From Capnocytophaga catalasegens (lineage in GTDB: Bacteria > Bacteroidota > Bacteroidia > Flavobacteriales > Flavobacteriaceae), in NCBI RefSeq assembly GCF_026005215.1, contig NZ_BPMA01000007.1:1-64000 (forward strand): 64,000 bases of DNA. Reading direction: 5' to 3'. The translations under genes and the position numbers were made by a program. The notes beneath the pieces are model-generated. The model saw nothing but the letters and a program-made list of their open reading frames with translations. It was not told the DNA's origin and did no database searches. Numbering within the stretch: the first letter of the stretch is position 1; each line of letters begins with the position of its first letter. This document shows, piece after piece, positions 14,610 through 49,490 of the stretch.

Positions 14610-15749
14610 ATGAACAAGATAAAAATACTCATCATAGCTCTTGCAGCAATGCTAAGTGATAATATTTCAGCACAAGATAATTATCGACCTTGGCTTGTTG
14701 GTGCGGGTATCAATACAGTTGATATGCGTGTACCCTCTGATTTTAGTGGTATTGCCAAAGACTGGTTTGGCTACCCTGATATGAATGTATCGTTTCGTGT
14801 TTCAGCAGCACGTTACATTAAAAAAGGGATTACAGCCGAGGTGGCTTTTGCTTTAAATAGCATCACCAAAGATGAAACCTATTTCCCCGAGGCAAAAAAT
14901 ACTATCAGTGGAAAAACCTTTTGGGATGCCGATGTAAGAGCTCGTTATCACCTGAATCGCTTATGGAGTGTTATTCCGTGGTTTGATCCATATCCACAAC
15001 TGGGTATTGGTATTTCTTCCATTGAAGGTGAAAGCAAAGCAAATCTTGTAGCGGGGTTGGGAGCCAATTTTTGGTTTACCGATATAGTCGGAGCTAATTT
15101 ACAAACTACTTACAATCCAGCTTTCGGAGGAGGTATAGGCAAAGATTATTTCCAATGGGGGGCAGGTGTGGTTATAAAATTGCCATTCAAAGCACGTGAA
15201 AATCCTATTGTAGATCATGTAGAGCGTGAGAAATTGCCAAAAGAGCCTAAAAAACGAAAAAAAGTATCGCAAAACAAATCTATTACTCGCCAAGAAACCG
15301 ATGAAGAGCGTCAAGCACGCTTGGCACGCTTAGAAGCTGAACGTCAGGAACGTGTAGCTCGTGTAGAACGTGTAACCAAAGAGATCAACTTGTATGCCAA
15401 AACTATTTTGTTTGATACAGACAAATCGGTTGTCAAAACACAAGCCGAGTTTATTTTGGATAACATTGCCAAAATTATGAATGAAAATAAAGATTTTCAC
15501 TTTGTGATAGAGGGACATACAGACAATGTGGGTTCTGCCGAACATAATTTAAAGCTTTCGCAAGATAGAGCCGATTCCATCAAAAAATATTTGATACAGA
15601 AAGGCATTGATAAAAAACGCTTAGAAGCAAAAGGTTATGGTTTAACTCGTCCATTAGAAAACAATAATACCGAACGCGGACGCGAAATCAACCGCCGTGT
15701 TGAAATCAATGTTATACCTCTGGAAGTAGAAGTTGAAATACAAGAATAA
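14610..15749 (+). CDS. OmpA-family outer-membrane protein
   Basis: A 379-aa protein with a signal peptide (MNKIKILIIALAAMLSDNISA), an N-terminal beta-barrel-like region (about 25-200), a charged, Arg/Glu-rich linker (about 205-260) that may be helical, and a C-terminal OmpA peptidoglycan-binding domain (about 265-370). The OmpA domain shows ILFDTDKSVVKTQAEFILDNIA, VIEGHTDNVGSAEHN and GREINRRVEI, including the Asp and Arg that grip diaminopimelate. It probably anchors the outer membrane to the wall. The gene follows the LRR lipoprotein and ends before a strong terminator. Confidence 0.9.
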   Translation: MNKIKILIIALAAMLSDNISAQDNYRPWLVGAGINTVDMRVPSDFSGIAKDWFGYPDMNVSFRVSAARYIKKGITAEVAFALNSITKDETYFPEAKNTISGKTFWDADVRARYHLNRLWSVIPWFDPYPQLGIGISSIEGESKANLVAGLGANFWFTDIVGANLQTTYNPAFGGGIGKDYFQWGAGVVIKLPFKARENPIVDHVEREKLPKEPKKRKKVSQNKSITRQETDEERQARLARLEAERQERVARVERVTKEINLYAKTILFDTDKSVVKTQAEFILDNIAKIMNENKDFHFVIEGHTDNVGSAEHNLKLSQDRADSIKKYLIQKGIDKKRLEAKGYGLTRPLENNNTERGREINRRVEINVIPLEVEVEIQE

Positions 15750-15820
15750 CAAAGTAATGTTGTTTTTTCATTAAAATGGGTTTTTCCCTGTAAGTTAAAA
15801 ATTTATTTAAACGTTAGTCA

Positions 15821-15860
15821 AAAAGGCTTTTATGGTGTGATCATCTTAAAAGCCTTTTTT
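15821..15860 (+). terminator. terminator after the OmpA gene
   Basis: AAAAGGCTTTTA (15821-15832) pairs with TAAAAGCCTTTT (15847-15858) around a 14-base loop and is followed directly by T residues. It separates the OmpA unit from the aromatic operon. Confidence 0.88.
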
Positions 15861-15909
15861 TGCAGAAAATAAATTTTGAAAAATTTTTATTTTTAAAGAA
15901 AAAAATTCA

Positions 15910-15917
15910 TATCTTTG
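15910..15917 (+). promoter_or_regulatory. -7 promoter element of the aromatic operon
   Basis: TATCTTTG is a full match to TAnnTTTG. It places the transcript start near 15924, about 20 bases ahead of the leader-peptide ATG. No clear TTG is present at the -33 distance, where the DNA is A/T only. Confidence 0.6.
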
Positions 15918-15942
15918 CACTCGGTTATACTCATAATTATTT

Positions 15943-15993
15943 ATGCTTCAAATCAACTATTATTTCGGATTTTACTACTTTTTTCAGATTTGA
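15943..15993 (+). CDS. Phe/Tyr leader peptide of the pheA operon
   Basis: A 16-codon frame, MLQINYYFGFYYFFQI, ending at TGA 15991-15993. Four Tyr (TAT, TAT, TAC, TAC) and four Phe (TTC and three TTT) codons fill eight of the nine positions 6-14. It lies just downstream of a -7 element and just upstream of three competing stem-loops that end in a terminator ahead of pheA. This is the classic layout of a ribosome-mediated attenuator. The downstream operon makes both Phe and Tyr, so the codon content matches the products. Expression of the peptide itself is inferred. Confidence 0.88.
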   Translation: MLQINYYFGFYYFFQI

Positions 15994-16064
15994 AAAAAGC
16001 AGGAATTCTTTTTGATTTTAAAGTAAATAATTTCTCATTCCTGCCTCTTTTGGCAGGTTTTTTT
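15975..16064 (+). promoter_or_regulatory. Phe/Tyr transcription attenuator
   Basis: Three alternative pairings are visible. Stem 1:2 pairs CTACTTTTTTC (15975-15985, covering the last Tyr and Phe codons) with GAAAAAAGCAG (15992-16002), with one mismatch. Stem 2:3, the antiterminator, pairs GCAGGAAT (15999-16006) with ATTCCTGC (16037-16044). Stem 3:4, the terminator, pairs CCTGCC (16040-16045) with GGCAGG (16052-16057), followed by seven T (16058-16064). 1:2 excludes 2:3, and 2:3 excludes 3:4. A ribosome stalled on Tyr or Phe codons would block 1:2, favour 2:3 and allow read-through into pheA at 16070; a ribosome at the stop codon would permit termination. Confidence 0.88.
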
Positions 16065-16069
16065 ATTTT

Positions 16070-16897
16070 ATGAAAGAAATCGTAGCAATACAAGGAATTG
16101 AAGGATCGTACCATCATCAGACAGCACAAGAGTATTTTGATAGAGATATACAAATAATTCCATGTGATTCATTTGACAAAGTAGCACAAAAACTACTTAA
16201 TCAAGAAGCGTCTATGGGTATTATGGCTATTGAAAATACCATAGCAGGCGCTATTTTGCCCAATTATAATCTGATTGACAAACATCAGTTATATATTGTA
16301 GGCGAACATTATATTGATATTCAACATCAGCTTATGGCAATTCAGGGGCAACATCTTGAAGACCTTACCGAAGTACATTCGCATTATATGGCTTTGTTAC
16401 AATGCAAAGATTTTTTTGTACAATACCCACATATAAAACTTGTAGAGGATAGCGATACGGCTTCCACAGCACGACGTATCAAACAAGGCAATTTACGCGG
16501 TATAGGTGCTATTGCTTCGGTTACAGCAGCCCACTTGTTTGGTTTAGAAATTCTTGCAACGAATATCCAAACAATGAAGAACAATGCTACCCGATTTGTT
16601 ATTCTGCAAAAAGAAAAACCTCTGTTGTATCAAAAAACAATCAATAAGGCCTCTATCAAATTTCAGCTTGACCACAAACGAGGTAGTTTGGCTACGGTAC
16701 TCAATGTGATAAGCGATTGTGATTTGAATATGACCAAAATACAATCGCTCCCTGTGGTTCATCAGCCTTGGAAATATGCCTTTTTTGTTGATGTAACTTT
16801 CGATAAATATACAAATTTTCAGAAAGTAATTCAACTATTAGACATTATGGCAGAAGATATTAAAATATTGGGTGAATATCAAAATCAATTAGACTAA
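16070..16897 (+). CDS. pheA: prephenate dehydratase
   Basis: Converts prephenate to phenylpyruvate, the precursor of Phe. The 275-aa protein has an N-terminal dehydratase domain (IQGIEGSYHHQTAQEYF, and the active-site TRF motif in NNATRFVILQ near residue 180) and a C-terminal ACT domain (RGSLATVLNVISDCDLNMTKIQSLP). In enteric PheA the equivalent of IQSLP is the Phe-binding ESRP motif; here it differs, so the way Phe acts on the enzyme may differ too. There is no fused chorismate mutase. It opens the operon 5 bases after the attenuator T run. Confidence 0.95.
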   Translation: MKEIVAIQGIEGSYHHQTAQEYFDRDIQIIPCDSFDKVAQKLLNQEASMGIMAIENTIAGAILPNYNLIDKHQLYIVGEHYIDIQHQLMAIQGQHLEDLTEVHSHYMALLQCKDFFVQYPHIKLVEDSDTASTARRIKQGNLRGIGAIASVTAAHLFGLEILATNIQTMKNNATRFVILQKEKPLLYQKTINKASIKFQLDHKRGSLATVLNVISDCDLNMTKIQSLPVVHQPWKYAFFVDVTFDKYTNFQKVIQLLDIMAEDIKILGEYQNQLD

Positions 16898-16912
16898 CAA
16901 AATACAATCTGA

Positions 16913-17776
16913 ATGAAAAAAATAGCTTTTGTAGGAGTAGGACTCATAGGTGGGTCTTTCGCTTTGGAAATCAAATTGTTATATCCGCAAGCTCAACTAA
17001 TCGGAATAGACAAAAACAAAGAAAATATACAAGAAGCACTAGATTTGAAAATCATTGACAAAAAAGGTACGATAGACGATGTTGCCTGTGCCGATATGGT
17101 TCTTATTTCAATTCCGGTAGATAATATTCCGGAGGTACTTTCTGATATTTTAGCTCGCGTAAAGGAACAAACACTTGTTATTGATATGGGTTCGACCAAA
17201 GCTGAAATTTGTCAAAGTGTTGAAAACCACCCTAAAAGAAATCAATTTCTGGCAGCACATCCCATAGCTGGTACCGAATATTCGGGAGCTAAATCGGCTT
17301 TCAGAGGGCTTTTTGCTGGCAAAACAATGATTGTCTGTGAGGTGGAAAAAACTTCATTCGCTTTGCAAGAGAAAGCCCTTGACCTTTTCCAAAAAATCGG
17401 AATGCGTATTCGGTACATGAATCCTGTAATGCACGACAAACATATAGCATATGTGTCTCATTTGTCGCACGTTATATCATATATGTTAGGTAAAACCGTT
17501 ATGGAAAAAGAAGCAAGTGAAAAAGATATTTTCGATATGGCAGGTTCAGGATTTGCCTCGACTGTGCGTTTGGCAAAAAGTTCAGCAAGTATGTGGGTAC
17601 CTATTTTCAAACAAAATAGAAATTATCTATTAGAATGTTTGAAAGAATATATTGAGAATTTACATCAGTTTGAACAATTATTAGCTGCTGAAAATTATTC
17701 AAGAATTTTTGACCAAATTGACCAAATAAATCAAATAAAAGACATTTTGAATGGAAAAAACATTCAAATAAAATAA
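16913..17776 (+). CDS. tyrA: prephenate dehydrogenase
   Basis: Oxidatively decarboxylates prephenate to 4-hydroxyphenylpyruvate on the way to Tyr. The 287-aa protein opens with the NAD(P)-binding fold (KIAFVGVGLIGGSFALEI), has VIDMGSTKAEI, the catalytic HPIAGTEYSGAKSAF segment (His about residue 115) and a helical C-terminal dimerisation region. It carries no ACT or mutase domain. The gap to pheA is 15 bases and to the next gene 16, so the three genes form one operon. Confidence 0.95.
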   Translation: MKKIAFVGVGLIGGSFALEIKLLYPQAQLIGIDKNKENIQEALDLKIIDKKGTIDDVACADMVLISIPVDNIPEVLSDILARVKEQTLVIDMGSTKAEICQSVENHPKRNQFLAAHPIAGTEYSGAKSAFRGLFAGKTMIVCEVEKTSFALQEKALDLFQKIGMRIRYMNPVMHDKHIAYVSHLSHVISYMLGKTVMEKEASEKDIFDMAGSGFASTVRLAKSSASMWVPIFKQNRNYLLECLKEYIENLHQFEQLLAAENYSRIFDQIDQINQIKDILNGKNIQIK

Positions 17777-17792
17777 AAATAGAATTTTAGTT

Positions 17793-18872
17793 ATGGAAAA
17801 TACACCTTTATTACGTAAATGGCTTGATGCGCTGGGTCTAAACCATCCGCTTGTTATCGCAGGTCCTTGTTCTGCCGAAACCGAAGAGCAAGTATTGCAA
17901 GTAGCTCACCAGCTGAAAGATAAACGGATTTCGTTCTTTCGAGCAGGAATTTGGAAACCACGTACACGCCCTGGGGGCTTTGAAGGTATTGGCGAAATAG
18001 GGCTCAAATGGCTCAAACGTGTCAAAGAAGAAACGGGCTTAAAAACTGCCACAGAGGTTGCTAATCGAGACCACGTACGCCTTGCTTTAGCGTATGATAT
18101 TGACCTATTGTGGATTGGTGCGCGCTCTACGGTAAGTCCGTTTATTATTCAAGAAATCGCAGACGAACTCAAAGGTACAGACAAAATTATTTTGGTCAAA
18201 AACCCCGTTAATCCTGATTTACCCTTATGGATTGGTGCATTGGAACGCCTTCAACGAGCCGATATATCCAACTTAGGAGTTATCCATCGAGGTTTTTCAA
18301 CGTATGAGAAAACCAAATATCGAAATATTCCTGAGTGGCAACTTGTTATTGACCTTCAAAATCGCTTCCCCGAACTACCAATTATTTGTGACCCGTCGCA
18401 TATTGCAGGCAATCGTGAGCTTATCTTTGACTTATCGCAAACAGCATTGGACTTGAACCTTGACGGACTAATGATAGAAACCCATTGCAATCCTGATAAA
18501 GCGTGGAGTGATGCTCCCCAGCAAGTAACTCCCCATGCACTTGTTGAGATATTGAAAAACTTACAGATACGTAAAGAAACTACACCCGAAGCCGATTTTC
18601 AGATGCGGCTTCAAAACTTGCGATCGCAAATAGATATTCTTGATGAGCAACTTTTGGATTTGCTCAAAAAAAGAATGGAAATATCAGACCATATCGGAAG
18701 TTTGAAAAAAGAGAAAAACGTTGCTATCTTGCAAAACAGACGGTGGAACGAGATTCTGGGCAAGATGATTTTGCAAGGAGAAGAAAAAGGACTTTCGGAA
18801 GAATTTATCTTAAAACTTTTCAAAGCCATTCACCAAGAGTCTATCGCTCGGCAAGAGAAAATAGTAAGATAA
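17793..18872 (+). CDS. bifunctional DAHP synthase / chorismate mutase
   Basis: A 359-aa fusion enzyme. The N-terminal part (about 1-265) is a DAHP synthase of the KDO8P-like type (PLVIAGPCSAETEEQ, FFRAGIWKPRTRPGGFEGIG, CDPSHIAGNRE) that condenses erythrose 4-phosphate and PEP as the first step of the shikimate pathway. The C-terminal part (about 275-355) is an AroQ-class chorismate mutase (LRSQIDILDEQLLDLLKKRMEI and LHS helices following). It thus supplies both the entry step and the branch to prephenate for PheA and TyrA upstream. In this family fusion the mutase domain often also acts as the allosteric sensor. Confidence 0.94.
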   Translation: MENTPLLRKWLDALGLNHPLVIAGPCSAETEEQVLQVAHQLKDKRISFFRAGIWKPRTRPGGFEGIGEIGLKWLKRVKEETGLKTATEVANRDHVRLALAYDIDLLWIGARSTVSPFIIQEIADELKGTDKIILVKNPVNPDLPLWIGALERLQRADISNLGVIHRGFSTYEKTKYRNIPEWQLVIDLQNRFPELPIICDPSHIAGNRELIFDLSQTALDLNLDGLMIETHCNPDKAWSDAPQQVTPHALVEILKNLQIRKETTPEADFQMRLQNLRSQIDILDEQLLDLLKKRMEISDHIGSLKKEKNVAILQNRRWNEILGKMILQGEEKGLSEEFILKLFKAIHQESIARQEKIVR

Positions 18873-19055
18873 CAAACCACATTCCAAGAGTAGGAGATAT
18901 GGAAGTCTTTTCATAGATTTGTTAGAGGCTTCTTGTAGTGTTTGTTCTACATTATTTGTTATTTTTTCGCTAAGTCGTTTCAAAATTTGTGATTGCGCAG
19001 GAACAATGATACCAAATGACAATACAAATACTAATGTGTAAATACATTTTTTCAT
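18810..19055 (-). pseudogene. truncated secreted protein, N-terminal fragment
   Basis: From ATG 19055 the frame encodes a good signal peptide (MKKCIYTLVFVLSFGIIVPAQSQ) and a charged helix (ILKRLSEKITNNVEQTLQEASNK) of the sort that opens some flavobacterial outer-membrane proteins. After about residue 48 the frame becomes hydrophobic and runs antisense into the end of the DAHP synthase gene. The natural C-terminus therefore appears to be missing, probably by deletion, with a junction near 18890. Function unknown. Confidence 0.45.
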
Positions 19056-38674: not shown

Positions 38675-38700
38675 GTTTTGTTTTGTTTTTGTCATAAAAA

Positions 38701-39003
38701 GGAGCAAATCATAAGCCGGATTCTGTTCCTTATTTTTAATTATAAAGGTGCTTATCATTTATCTTGATTTGCAATTACTTGCAAACTCTAACCGCCTACC
38801 CTCCGACATTGAGCGAGCCACTCTTATGCGCCGGTTTACATAGCGTTGCACCACATAGAGTTTACCTGATTTCACTACAACCGTATTGTACTTGCTTTCT
38901 GTTGCACTTGTCCTCGTCTTGCGACGGACGGGAATTACCCGCTATGTTGCTCTTTGGTGTCCAGACTTTCCTCTATAAAATAGCGATAAGCTGATTTGCT
39001 CCG
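38701..39003 (-). ncRNA. rnpB: RNase P RNA, bacterial type A
   Basis: The catalytic RNA of RNase P, which trims tRNA 5' ends. On the minus strand it starts near 39003 with the GGAGCAAATCA arm, whose complement TGATTTGCTCC closes the 3' end at 38701-38711 (the P1 helix). The highly conserved GAGGAAAGTCTGGAC lies at 38959-38973 and the 3' ACAGAATCCGGCTTAT at 38711-38726. The length of about 300 bases is rather short but plausible for the group. A TATCTTTG -7 element at 39008-39015 (minus) fits a start near 39002. A 76-codon plus-strand frame across it is an artefact. Confidence 0.95.
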
Positions 39004-47022: not shown

Positions 47023-47149
47023 GCAACTCAAAAATCATAATTTATAAAAAATGAGTTGCAAAAGTTACGTATATTTATTTTGATAAATCCTATTTATTTA
47101 AAAATCAAGTTATTAACAAAGAAATATTGCAAGAAAATGCTTCTTGCAA
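47023..47149 (+). promoter_or_regulatory. two hairpins in the 5' region of the TonB receptor gene
   Basis: GCAACTC (47023-47029) pairs with GAGTTGC (47053-47059), and TTGCAAGAA (47127-47135) pairs perfectly with TTCTTGCAA (47141-47149). The second ends 11 bases before the ATG at 47161 and could hide the ribosome site. Neither is followed by a T run. Confidence 0.4.
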
Positions 47150-47160
47150 CGCTATATCAT

Positions 47161-49425
47161 ATGAAAAAATATATTACATTTATTACCCTATTTTGTAGTG
47201 CTATTTTGTACGCACAGACCTTTGTACAAGGTAAAATTACTATTGACGAAAATGGACACGAAACGCCTGCTATTGGGGTTGAGGTATATTGGCAAGGAAC
47301 AGCTATCGGAACAACAACAGCCGAAAATGGACGTTTTATGATTCCATATAAACCAGAACAAAAAAAGCTGATAATTAGTTATTTAGGTTTCAAAACAGAG
47401 ACAATAATCATTAACGACCCTATGAAGTATATTACCATAACTTTAGTAGAAGATGCAAATCAGTTAGATGGTGTTGAGGTTGTTCAAAAACGAAAATCTA
47501 CTGAAAAATTATATCATAAAACAGCTAATGTTATCAATATAAATAGCAGCGAGCTCTTAAAAGCAGCGTGTTGTAACCTTTCTGATAGTTTTGAAACCAA
47601 TACTTCGGTTGATGTTAGTGTTTCCGATGCTTTGACAGGAACAAAACAAATTAAAATGTTAGGACTTTCAAGTCCGTATTTGCTTATGACACAAGAGAAT
47701 ATCCCCTCCATACGTGGAGCTTCGCAAGTATATGGAATGACTTTTGTTCCTGGAACTTGGGTGGAAGGAATTCAAATAATAAAAGGAGCTGGAAGCGTTA
47801 TTAACGGGTACGAAAGTATTGCAGGACAAATAAATACTGAATTGGTAAAACCACCTACGGATAAGCCTTTTTTCTTAAATTTGTATGGCTCTAACGAAGG
47901 TCGATTAGAATTGAATACACATCTGAATGGGCAAGTTGCAGAACATTGGCATTCAGGATTTTATCTGCACGGCAACCATCAAAATATGCGTTCGGATATG
48001 AATTATGATGGTTTTTTAGATATGCCTTTGGGACATCAATTCAATGTGATGAATAGATGGCAGTACACTAACAGTGAAACGGGTTGGGAATCGAAACTTT
48101 TGTTCCATTTTTTCACTGATGAGCGTACCACAGGAGAAAAAAATTTCCGTACAGAATTATATAGCCCAACGTATAATATTTGGGGGAGCAATATCAAAAC
48201 AAATCAATTCAATGTAGCTGCCAAAACGGGTTATGTATGGAAAGATTTGGGATTTCAAAGCATTGGTTTTCAGGGAGCTTATAAGTATTATGACCAAGTT
48301 TCATACTTTGGACGAAGTCAGTATGATATTCGCCAACATAGTGGATATTTCAACGTTATTTTTAGCTCAATTATCAGCAATACACTTAACAAATTTTCAA
48401 CAGGAATTACAACAACTTTTGACGGATATGATGAGTTTGTTAATGTAAATGCTACTCCAACAAACTATGACCGAAATGATTATGGAGTAGGAACATTCTT
48501 TGAATATGCGTATGATAATACGACCAATTTTAGCTTTACAGCAGGGCTTCGAGCTGATTACCACAACCGATTAGGATTTTTTGTTACACCTCGATTACAT
48601 ATGCGTTATATGCCTTGGAACAAAGGAGTATTGCGATTTTCCGTAGGACAAGGAAGACGTGTTGCTAATATTTTTGCTGAAAATCAGAAGTTTTTTTCAT
48701 CGGCTCGTAAGGTAAACTTGATGAATCAAAGTGGGAAAACCTACGGATTAAATCCTGAAAAAGCGTGGAATTACGGAGTTTCATTTTTACAAGGATTTAA
48801 ATTGGCAGAGCGCGAAGGTGATATTTCGGTCGATTTCTATCGAACAGATTTTCAAAATCAGGTAGTGGTCGATTGGGAAAATCCTCGTTTGGTTTCTTTT
48901 TACAATTTGGAAGGGAAAAGTTATGCCAATAGCCTACAAGCCGAAATAAATTACCAGATATTGAAAGGTTTGAACCTGAAAGTAGCTTACAAATATTACG
49001 ATGTTAAAACTGATTATACATCAGGCAAAAAGGCACAACCACTACAAGCAAAACACCGATTTTTTGCTAATTTAGCTTATGATACACCTATCAAACAAGG
49101 TCGCCAATGGCGTTTTGATTACACCTTTAATCGAGTAGGAGAACAGCGATTGCCTTCAACAGCAACCAATCCGCAAGCGTATCGTCTTTCGGATTATACT
49201 AAGCCTTATAACGTAATGAATGCGCAGATAACACGTGCTTTTTCAGACAATTTTGAAATTTACTTAGGAGGTGAAAATTTGACTAATTATAAACAAAAAA
49301 ATGCTATTTTGGCAAGTGATGACCCTTTTGGTGCATATTTTGATACTTCAATGGTTTATGCTCCTGTTTTTGGACGAATGATTTATGCAGGATTGCGTTT
49401 TCACTTGACATTTAATAAGAAATAA
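47161..49425 (+). CDS. TonB-dependent receptor, probably metal-related
   Basis: A 754-aa outer-membrane receptor. After a signal peptide (MKKYITFITLFCSAILYA) comes a carboxypeptidase-like beta-sandwich (residues about 20-115), a plug domain (about 120-250) and a barrel ending in GRMIYAGLRFHLTFNK. The plug has the sequence LKAACCNLSDSFETN with two adjacent cysteines and later SIAGQINTEL, as in Bacteroidetes receptors next to copper or heavy-metal genes. With the Cys-rich HYC_CC_PP-type protein upstream, metal uptake or sensing is a reasonable inference; the ligand is not proven. The ATG at 47161 starts the signal peptide. Confidence 0.88.
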   Translation: MKKYITFITLFCSAILYAQTFVQGKITIDENGHETPAIGVEVYWQGTAIGTTTAENGRFMIPYKPEQKKLIISYLGFKTETIIINDPMKYITITLVEDANQLDGVEVVQKRKSTEKLYHKTANVININSSELLKAACCNLSDSFETNTSVDVSVSDALTGTKQIKMLGLSSPYLLMTQENIPSIRGASQVYGMTFVPGTWVEGIQIIKGAGSVINGYESIAGQINTELVKPPTDKPFFLNLYGSNEGRLELNTHLNGQVAEHWHSGFYLHGNHQNMRSDMNYDGFLDMPLGHQFNVMNRWQYTNSETGWESKLLFHFFTDERTTGEKNFRTELYSPTYNIWGSNIKTNQFNVAAKTGYVWKDLGFQSIGFQGAYKYYDQVSYFGRSQYDIRQHSGYFNVIFSSIISNTLNKFSTGITTTFDGYDEFVNVNATPTNYDRNDYGVGTFFEYAYDNTTNFSFTAGLRADYHNRLGFFVTPRLHMRYMPWNKGVLRFSVGQGRRVANIFAENQKFFSSARKVNLMNQSGKTYGLNPEKAWNYGVSFLQGFKLAEREGDISVDFYRTDFQNQVVVDWENPRLVSFYNLEGKSYANSLQAEINYQILKGLNLKVAYKYYDVKTDYTSGKKAQPLQAKHRFFANLAYDTPIKQGRQWRFDYTFNRVGEQRLPSTATNPQAYRLSDYTKPYNVMNAQITRAFSDNFEIYLGGENLTNYKQKNAILASDDPFGAYFDTSMVYAPVFGRMIYAGLRFHLTFNKK

Positions 49426-49456
49426 AGGTACTATCATAATAATTTTTTGCTTTTAA

Positions 49457-49490
49457 AATCCCTGTGAATTTAATATCGCAGGGATTTTTT
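49457..49490 (+). terminator. terminator after the TonB receptor gene
   Basis: AAATCCCTG (49457-49464 approx.) pairs with CAGGGATTT (49479-49487) and is followed by a T run, 30 bases past the stop codon. Confidence 0.85.

Follow-up and report, generated by a model that had tools for sequence, protein, structure and literature searches.

Control of pheA by a leader peptide is familiar from E. coli, where the control codons of pheL specify Phe and never Tyr. A single leader can also carry codons for several amino acids, as those of ilvGMEDA, ilvBN and thr do. In the portions consulted here, PMC2965389 (2010) places the known leader-peptide systems in Proteobacteria and Actinobacteria and adds Firmicutes, and PMC11802643 states that E. 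coli pheA depends on charged Phe-tRNA. The same part of the latter source describes, after Neshat et al. (2014), the Corynebacterium glutamicum leader AroR, which stands before aroF, contains Phe-Tyr-Phe and shows an effect of Phe and reportedly none of Tyr. Leader-like sORFs, reminiscent of attenuation leaders, have been reported in long 5′ UTRs of Bacteroides thetaiotaomicron (PMC7366714, in part). Finally, the searched text of PMC9723704 (2021) offers hints that leader peptides attenuate amino-acid operons in Flavobacterium psychrophilum and reports a structured 5′ element of pheA, also present in other Flavobacteriaceae genera, without Rfam hits; this text contains no mention of tyrosine, tryptophan, phenylalanine or aromatic. 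Among open-licence papers we found nothing closer than PMC9723704, PMC7366714 and PMC11802643. A preliminary description of the locus studied here had suggested that it may be a little-known device, which needs correcting given the attenuation clues and the pheA 5′ element already in the searched text of PMC9723704.

The window analysed here, a stretch of 64,000 nucleotides from Capnocytophaga catalasegens, carries a short aromatic-rich frame ahead of pheA, tyrA and a DAHP synthase gene (Table 1). In all likelihood this leader is a genuine attenuator of a familiar type, and its conservation extends well outside the window. We conclude with considerable confidence that it acts as a ribosome-mediated transcription attenuator, through which expression of pheA-tyrA-aroF would follow the amount of charged aromatic tRNA available. 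When the sequence was re-read, both the 16-residue frame with four Tyr and four Phe codons in positions 6–14 and the three mutually exclusive pairings 1:2, 2:3 and 3:4, as given in the preliminary description, agreed with the letters at every coordinate.

Table 1. Features of the leader and the operon it precedes, in window coordinates.
Feature	Position	Strand	Basis
Terminator-like inverted repeat AAAAAGGCTTTTA...TAAAAGCCTTTTT after the upstream OmpA-family gene	15820–15859	+	sequence reading
TATCTTTG, matches TAnnTTTG	15910–15917	+	sequence reading
Leader peptide MLQINYYFGFYYFFQI, ATG 15943 to TGA 15991–15993, four Tyr and four Phe control codons	15943–15993	+	sequence reading, frame survey, shuffles
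Region 1, 5′ arm of protector stem 1:2, core 15978–15985	15975–15985	+	sequence, folding
Region 2: 15992–16002 pairs with region 1; 15999–16006 (GCAGGAAT) pairs with region 3	15992–16006	+	sequence, folding, shuffles
Region 3: 16037–16044 (ATTCCTGC), antiterminator with region 2; 16040–16045 (CCTGCC), terminator with region 4	16037–16045	+	sequence, covariation
Region 4: 16052–16057 (GGCAGG), then T7 tract 16058–16064; intrinsic terminator	16052–16064	+	sequence, terminator scan
pheA, prephenate dehydratase (PF00800)	16070–16897	+	domain matches
tyrA, prephenate dehydrogenase (PF02153, PF20463)	16913–17776	+	domain matches
aroF-type DAHP synthase fused to chorismate mutase type II (PF00793, PF01817)	17793–18872	+	domain matches

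Tyr occupies leader codons 6, 7, 11 and 12, and Phe codons 8, 10, 13 and 14; as an attenuator calls for, the frame is short and dense in codons for what the operon makes. When both strands of the whole 64 kb are screened for sORFs no longer than 45 codons that have eight or more F or Y within nine residues, this leader is the only one found. Such a frame arises in none of 30 dinucleotide shuffles of the whole window and, when the 320-nt intergenic stretch is shuffled, in 6 of 3000 trials; it is not a product of chance. A scan of the window for amino-acid-rich frames before terminators gave a second candidate, an Ile/Leu/Val-rich short frame at 49301–49381 with a terminator-like hairpin at 49455–49488, which we rejected because it lies out of frame within a 789-codon ORF (47056–49425) and so looks like chance. 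At gathering, Rfam matches the window just once, with a bacterial RNase P RNA class A at 38697–39002 on the minus strand.

Stems 2:3 and 3:4 are perfect and 1:2 has one mismatch (15977:16000). The RNA from 15921 to 16064 has a folding energy of −29.5 kcal/mol (z −4.03), which none of 200 shuffles attains, and the score of the 2:3 helix, not remarkable taken alone, is reached by 1 of 40. Scanning 15700–19000 for terminators returned 2 against 2.2 expected, a count not above chance; the site at 16040–16064 is among those present and lies before the first structural gene, where an attenuator has its intrinsic terminator. In the ribosome-free fold, an outer helix (15935–15944 with 16023–16032) joins the surroundings of the start codon to the stretch after region 2, and computation without this helix shows 1:2 no longer winning in the window. 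The leader is probably a transcription unit of its own, at the start of its own transcript, given the sequence of the inverted repeat that follows the OmpA-family gene and of the box upstream of the frame. That box matches TAnnTTTG, which we take to be the Bacteroidota −7 box, and the putative transcription start lies near 15921. The inverted repeat is absent from the terminator scan, whose loops are limited to 3–8, and the two-box Bacteroidota promoter pattern has 21 matches across the window, none of them at the leader promoter.

In the mechanism we propose, RNA polymerase would start near 15921 and a ribosome would translate the 16-codon leader. A stall at the Tyr or Phe codons would cover region 1, allowing the 2:3 antiterminator to form and the operon to be read, whereas a ribosome reaching the stop codon would cover region 2, upon which 3:4 would form and transcription would end at the T tract. 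With no ribosome, 1:2 would form and the terminator would form too. We modelled these states by masking a ribosome footprint with the A site at each codon and computing the probability of the 2:3 pairing, P(2:3), in RNA up to region 3. For the window, P(2:3) is 0.95–0.98 at every Tyr and Phe codon and 0 at the stop codon, with a footprint of either +12 or +15; at +9 the value at the stop is 0.69, so that termination there needs the longer footprint. Across 118 leaders collected as described below, P(2:3) with a +12 footprint averages 0.87 for a stall at Phe, 0.82 at Tyr and 0.92 at Trp codons; at other codons the average is 0.44, and at the stop 0.007. The leader set behaves alike with footprints of +9 and +15, and none of 2000 permutations of codons within leaders reaches the observed sums for F, Y or W. 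The control codons are placed as an attenuator requires, a stall freeing region 2 and the stop masking it, the stop part holding in the window at +12 and +15 and not at +9.

Without a ribosome, RNA of the window from 15921 has P(1:2) of 0.99–1.0 and P(3:4) of 1.0, and P(2:3) is 0.01–0.04 for RNA that begins from or near the inferred transcript start, against 0.815 if it begins at the ATG. Among the 118 leaders, ribosome-free P(2:3) falls below 0.5 in only 39–52 and is at least 0.5 in 66–79, depending on the start, so this state is not generally predicted to terminate. The protector stem 1:2, which overlaps the control codons, is strong in the window; across the 118 leaders its covariation and its predicted dominance are weak. 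The switch very probably works in the cell, and it may answer to Tyr as well as to Phe.

Relatives were collected from the genus (20 genomes, 15 matching PheA, of which L036, a fragment with stops, was dropped to leave 14), from a Flavobacteriaceae sample (120 genomes, 102 with PheA) and from 21 loci on named contigs, giving 136 loci. Leaders were called by a script that looked for a short Phe/Tyr/Trp-dense frame and a terminator before pheA, and the leader set is in this sense selected on aromatic density. The frame is present in 121 loci, or 120 after removal of L002 (same contig as L041), and all 120 satisfy the density rule even without counting Trp. A terminator follows it in 118 of these, the exceptions by the script's rule being L010 and L019. 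The expectation that the frame would be found upstream of pheA in relatives is largely borne out: an F/Y-rich frame with a terminator precedes pheA in 97 of the 102 pheA-bearing family-sample genomes, and the frame is present in 8 of the 9 genomes of the window's genus in which pheA and tyrA are adjacent. It is missing from the ninth (L030) and from all five genus genomes with no tyrA beside pheA in the fetched stretch (L026, L032–L035). All seven genus genomes with pheA, tyrA and DAHP synthase within ~4 kb carry the frame; as these genomes are related, the genus result is an association and not a count of independent events. The family-sample loci lacking it are L026, L083, L093, L120 and L073, the last on a contig that starts within an apparent leader. 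Named-contig loci have the frame in 17 of 21 cases, those without it being L011, L020 and L022, with at most 127 upstream bases, and L021, where no such frame was seen. The leaderless pheA genes of L033 and L034, which have no tyrA beside them, have a promoter-like TAnnTTTG box immediately ahead of the ATG, as though the transcript had almost no leader, and L093 has near-identical ~110-nt direct repeats and a CCCGCC..GGCGGG hairpin before pheA in place of the leader. Before the DAHP synthase genes of the genus (20 loci, 7 linked), only two weak and dissimilar frames were found (L145 and L154).

Covariation of the arms was evaluated in an alignment of 118 leaders by five measures against 500 shuffles, which overstate significance because the leader sequences are related. 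Stem 3:4 pairs in 93.9% of cells, compared with 88.1% when shuffled, and its observed covariation is reached by 0 of 500 shuffles on all five measures. Stem 2:3 pairs in 81.0% of cells (73.6% shuffled), with 111 double-changed cells against 40.9 expected; four of its measures are reached by 0 to 11 of 500 shuffles, and the fifth, pairs changed on both sides, does not stand out, as 43 of 500 reach it. In region 3, a single column pairs with both region 2 (AU 57, GC 54, GU 5, unpaired 2, of 118) and region 4 (CG 55, UG 32, UA 30, unpaired 1) while switching between U and C. The exclusive pairings 2:3 and 3:4 are thus conserved as in an attenuator, one 2:3 measure of the five excepted. Across relatives the sequences weakly support stem 1:2, whose outer helix pairs in 62.6% of cells (56.7% shuffled) and whose inner helix is barely above its controls. 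The arms put forward in the preliminary description therefore covary in relatives for 2:3 and 3:4, but only weakly for 1:2, clear though that stem is in the window. In single leaders, at most 2 of 40 shuffles match the 2:3 helix in 81 of 119 cases and 3 or more do so in 38; RNAalifold alone recovered only the terminator. The window's arms, GCAGG/CCTGC, differ from the CGAGAC/GTCTCG common among the leaders, and by its sequence the window leader is a divergent member of the set.

From the leaders we built a covariance model and searched 198 genomes of the phylum with it (E 0.001, strict filters), which gave 31 matches in 30 genomes; the remaining 168 gave none, which under such filters does not equate to absence. 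Of these matches 30 were fetched; every one has an aromatic-rich frame and a PheA homologue no more than 131 bases away, and three of them (L162, L164, L166) come from genomes already in the training set. The window's own leader was missed in the 198-genome search and scores 36.3 bits (E 0.2) in its own genome, below one other place. Up to E 1 the window genome has three other matches: L157, the end of a lipoprotein-like frame, which we judged to be chance, and L159 and L160, near which no pheA, tyrA or aroF was seen. No Rfam family matches the window leader at gathering and a search at E up to 1 gave nothing useful there. The leaders of 14 related loci likewise match no family at gathering, RF01859 included; the sole Rfam match of these loci, Acido-Lenti-1 in L023, was discarded as it lies at 268–313 and the leader at 2322–2462.

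Within the frame, 57 pairs of similar leaders differ most often at codon position 3 (217, 256 and 344 differences at positions 1, 2 and 3), and the changes within aromatic codons spare position 1 (0, 50 and 62). Nonsynonymous codon differences nevertheless exceed synonymous ones (377 vs 153), so aromatic content is kept and the rest of the peptide is loose. Sensing of Phe by the leader is likely; sensing of Tyr is plausible from codon content and the ribosome model. It may instead be that an attenuator of this same design senses Phe only, its Tyr codons being kept for pairing or slow decoding or having too little effect, a reading to which we allow appreciable weight while thinking it somewhat doubtful. 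Phe codons do outnumber Tyr codons (means of 5.4 and 3.5 per leader, 120 leaders), and AroR with its Phe-Tyr-Phe reportedly answers Phe and not Tyr, according to the part of PMC11802643 consulted. Against this, each of the 120 leaders has at least 2 Tyr and at least 3 Phe codons, Tyr sits at permissive positions of the ribosome model in 116 of 118, and in the window the operon includes tyrA and Tyr codons 11–12 (15973–15978) extend into region 1.

More surprising is Trp. An in-frame Trp codon is found in 71 of 120 leaders, against 22.8 predicted by base shuffling; TGG occurs 72 times in the frame, compared with 21 for the other two frames combined, and Trp is located at several places within the aromatic block. 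It is present in 68 of 97 family-sample leaders (e.g. L077, L064, L133), in none of 8 from the window's genus and in none of the 13 among L006–L019, and its presence is labile, with 16 or more changes across a PheA tree of the 120. We considered whether the codon is tied to Trp synthesis. Leader-bearing genomes without a trpA match have Trp in 0 of 6 leaders (G000, G002, G005, G016, G019, G110), but trpA is matched in the genomes of 27 of the 29 Trp-less family-sample leaders; the link is therefore weak and was set aside. Aromatic synthesis is patchy in the genus, with Trp synthase alpha matched in 9 of 20 genomes and none shown by the other 11, and with no PheA match in 5 of 20; the window genome (G000) gave no match for Trp synthase alpha. 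Comparison of match positions places DAHP synthase, the entry to all three aromatic pathways, near pheA in many family-sample genomes. The frequent in-frame Trp codon of relatives hints at one leader for all three aromatics. We tentatively suggest, at less than even confidence, that in Bacteroidota one leader reads Phe, Tyr and, in most sampled Flavobacteriaceae, Trp, setting the first step of the whole aromatic pathway, and that its codon mix is retuned by lineage, as in the absence of Trp from the window's genus.

Leader-peptide attenuation ahead of pheA-tyrA-aro, the central proposal of the preliminary description, is well supported by conservation, by covariation of 2:3 and 3:4, by codon placement and by the lack of the frame in those genus members whose pheA has no tyrA beside it. 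Translational control, in which translation of the leader alters initiation at pheA or the ribosome reinitiates there, finds some encouragement in the window, where only 76 nt separate the leader stop from the pheA start, and in the part of PMC4833913 consulted, which proposes reinitiation at leader genes. We nonetheless think it improbable: the terminator follows the frame in 118 of 120 leader-bearing loci, the arms covary, and the distance from leader stop to pheA runs from 48 to 178 bases across loci (L074, with an uncertain pheA start, set aside), compared with a Bacteroidetes peak of 11–14 bp in the same part of that source. That the RNA is a riboswitch or protein-binding leader and the short frame a by-product would accord with the structured pheA 5′ element reported, in the text searched, without proven mechanism (PMC9723704). 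The lack of any Rfam family at gathering in the window leader or those of the 14 related loci, the retention of aromatic codons and the preponderance of third-position differences between similar leaders all speak against it, and we regard it as highly improbable. As for a constitutive terminator of the upstream gene next to an aromatic frame arisen by chance, T-rich DNA easily encodes Phe, six of the intergenic shuffles yield such a frame, and terminators are no more numerous in the region than chance predicts; yet the upstream gene has a separate terminator-like repeat, and the comparative data, with conservation in 97 of 102 family-sample genomes, argue so strongly against this reading that we give it almost no credence.

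How, then, does the probable attenuator compare with known systems? The sORFs of B. thetaiotaomicron belong to the same phylum, and no amino-acid operon is named for them in the part of PMC7366714 consulted. AroR resembles the window leader in its mixed Phe and Tyr codons and in ribosome-stalling attenuation of a DAHP synthase operon, but it belongs to Corynebacterium, in another phylum, and the likeness is drawn from the description in part of PMC11802643. The pheA 5′ element of F. psychrophilum shares both gene and family with the window leader, and our work offers a model at base resolution (arms, control codons, predicted states) of a conserved element noticed earlier and left unexplained in the searched text of PMC9723704. 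The natural variation in the aromatic codons of these leaders provides an easy test of how codon choice sets what an attenuator senses. E. coli pheL-pheA (RF01859, Phe_leader) likewise has a leader peptide with attenuation before pheA; the RF01859 model scores below gathering at 15989–16066 (20.1 bits vs 55, E 0.5), and the window leader differs in mixing Phe with Tyr and in an operon that adds tyrA and DAHP synthase. The multi-amino-acid leaders of ilvGMEDA, ilvBN and thr use branched-chain or Thr/Ile codons, in contrast to the aromatic codons here. Should the Tyr and Trp codons matter, one RNA would stand in for several of the devices that serve the aromatic pathway in E. coli, namely TyrR, TrpR, pheL and trpL.
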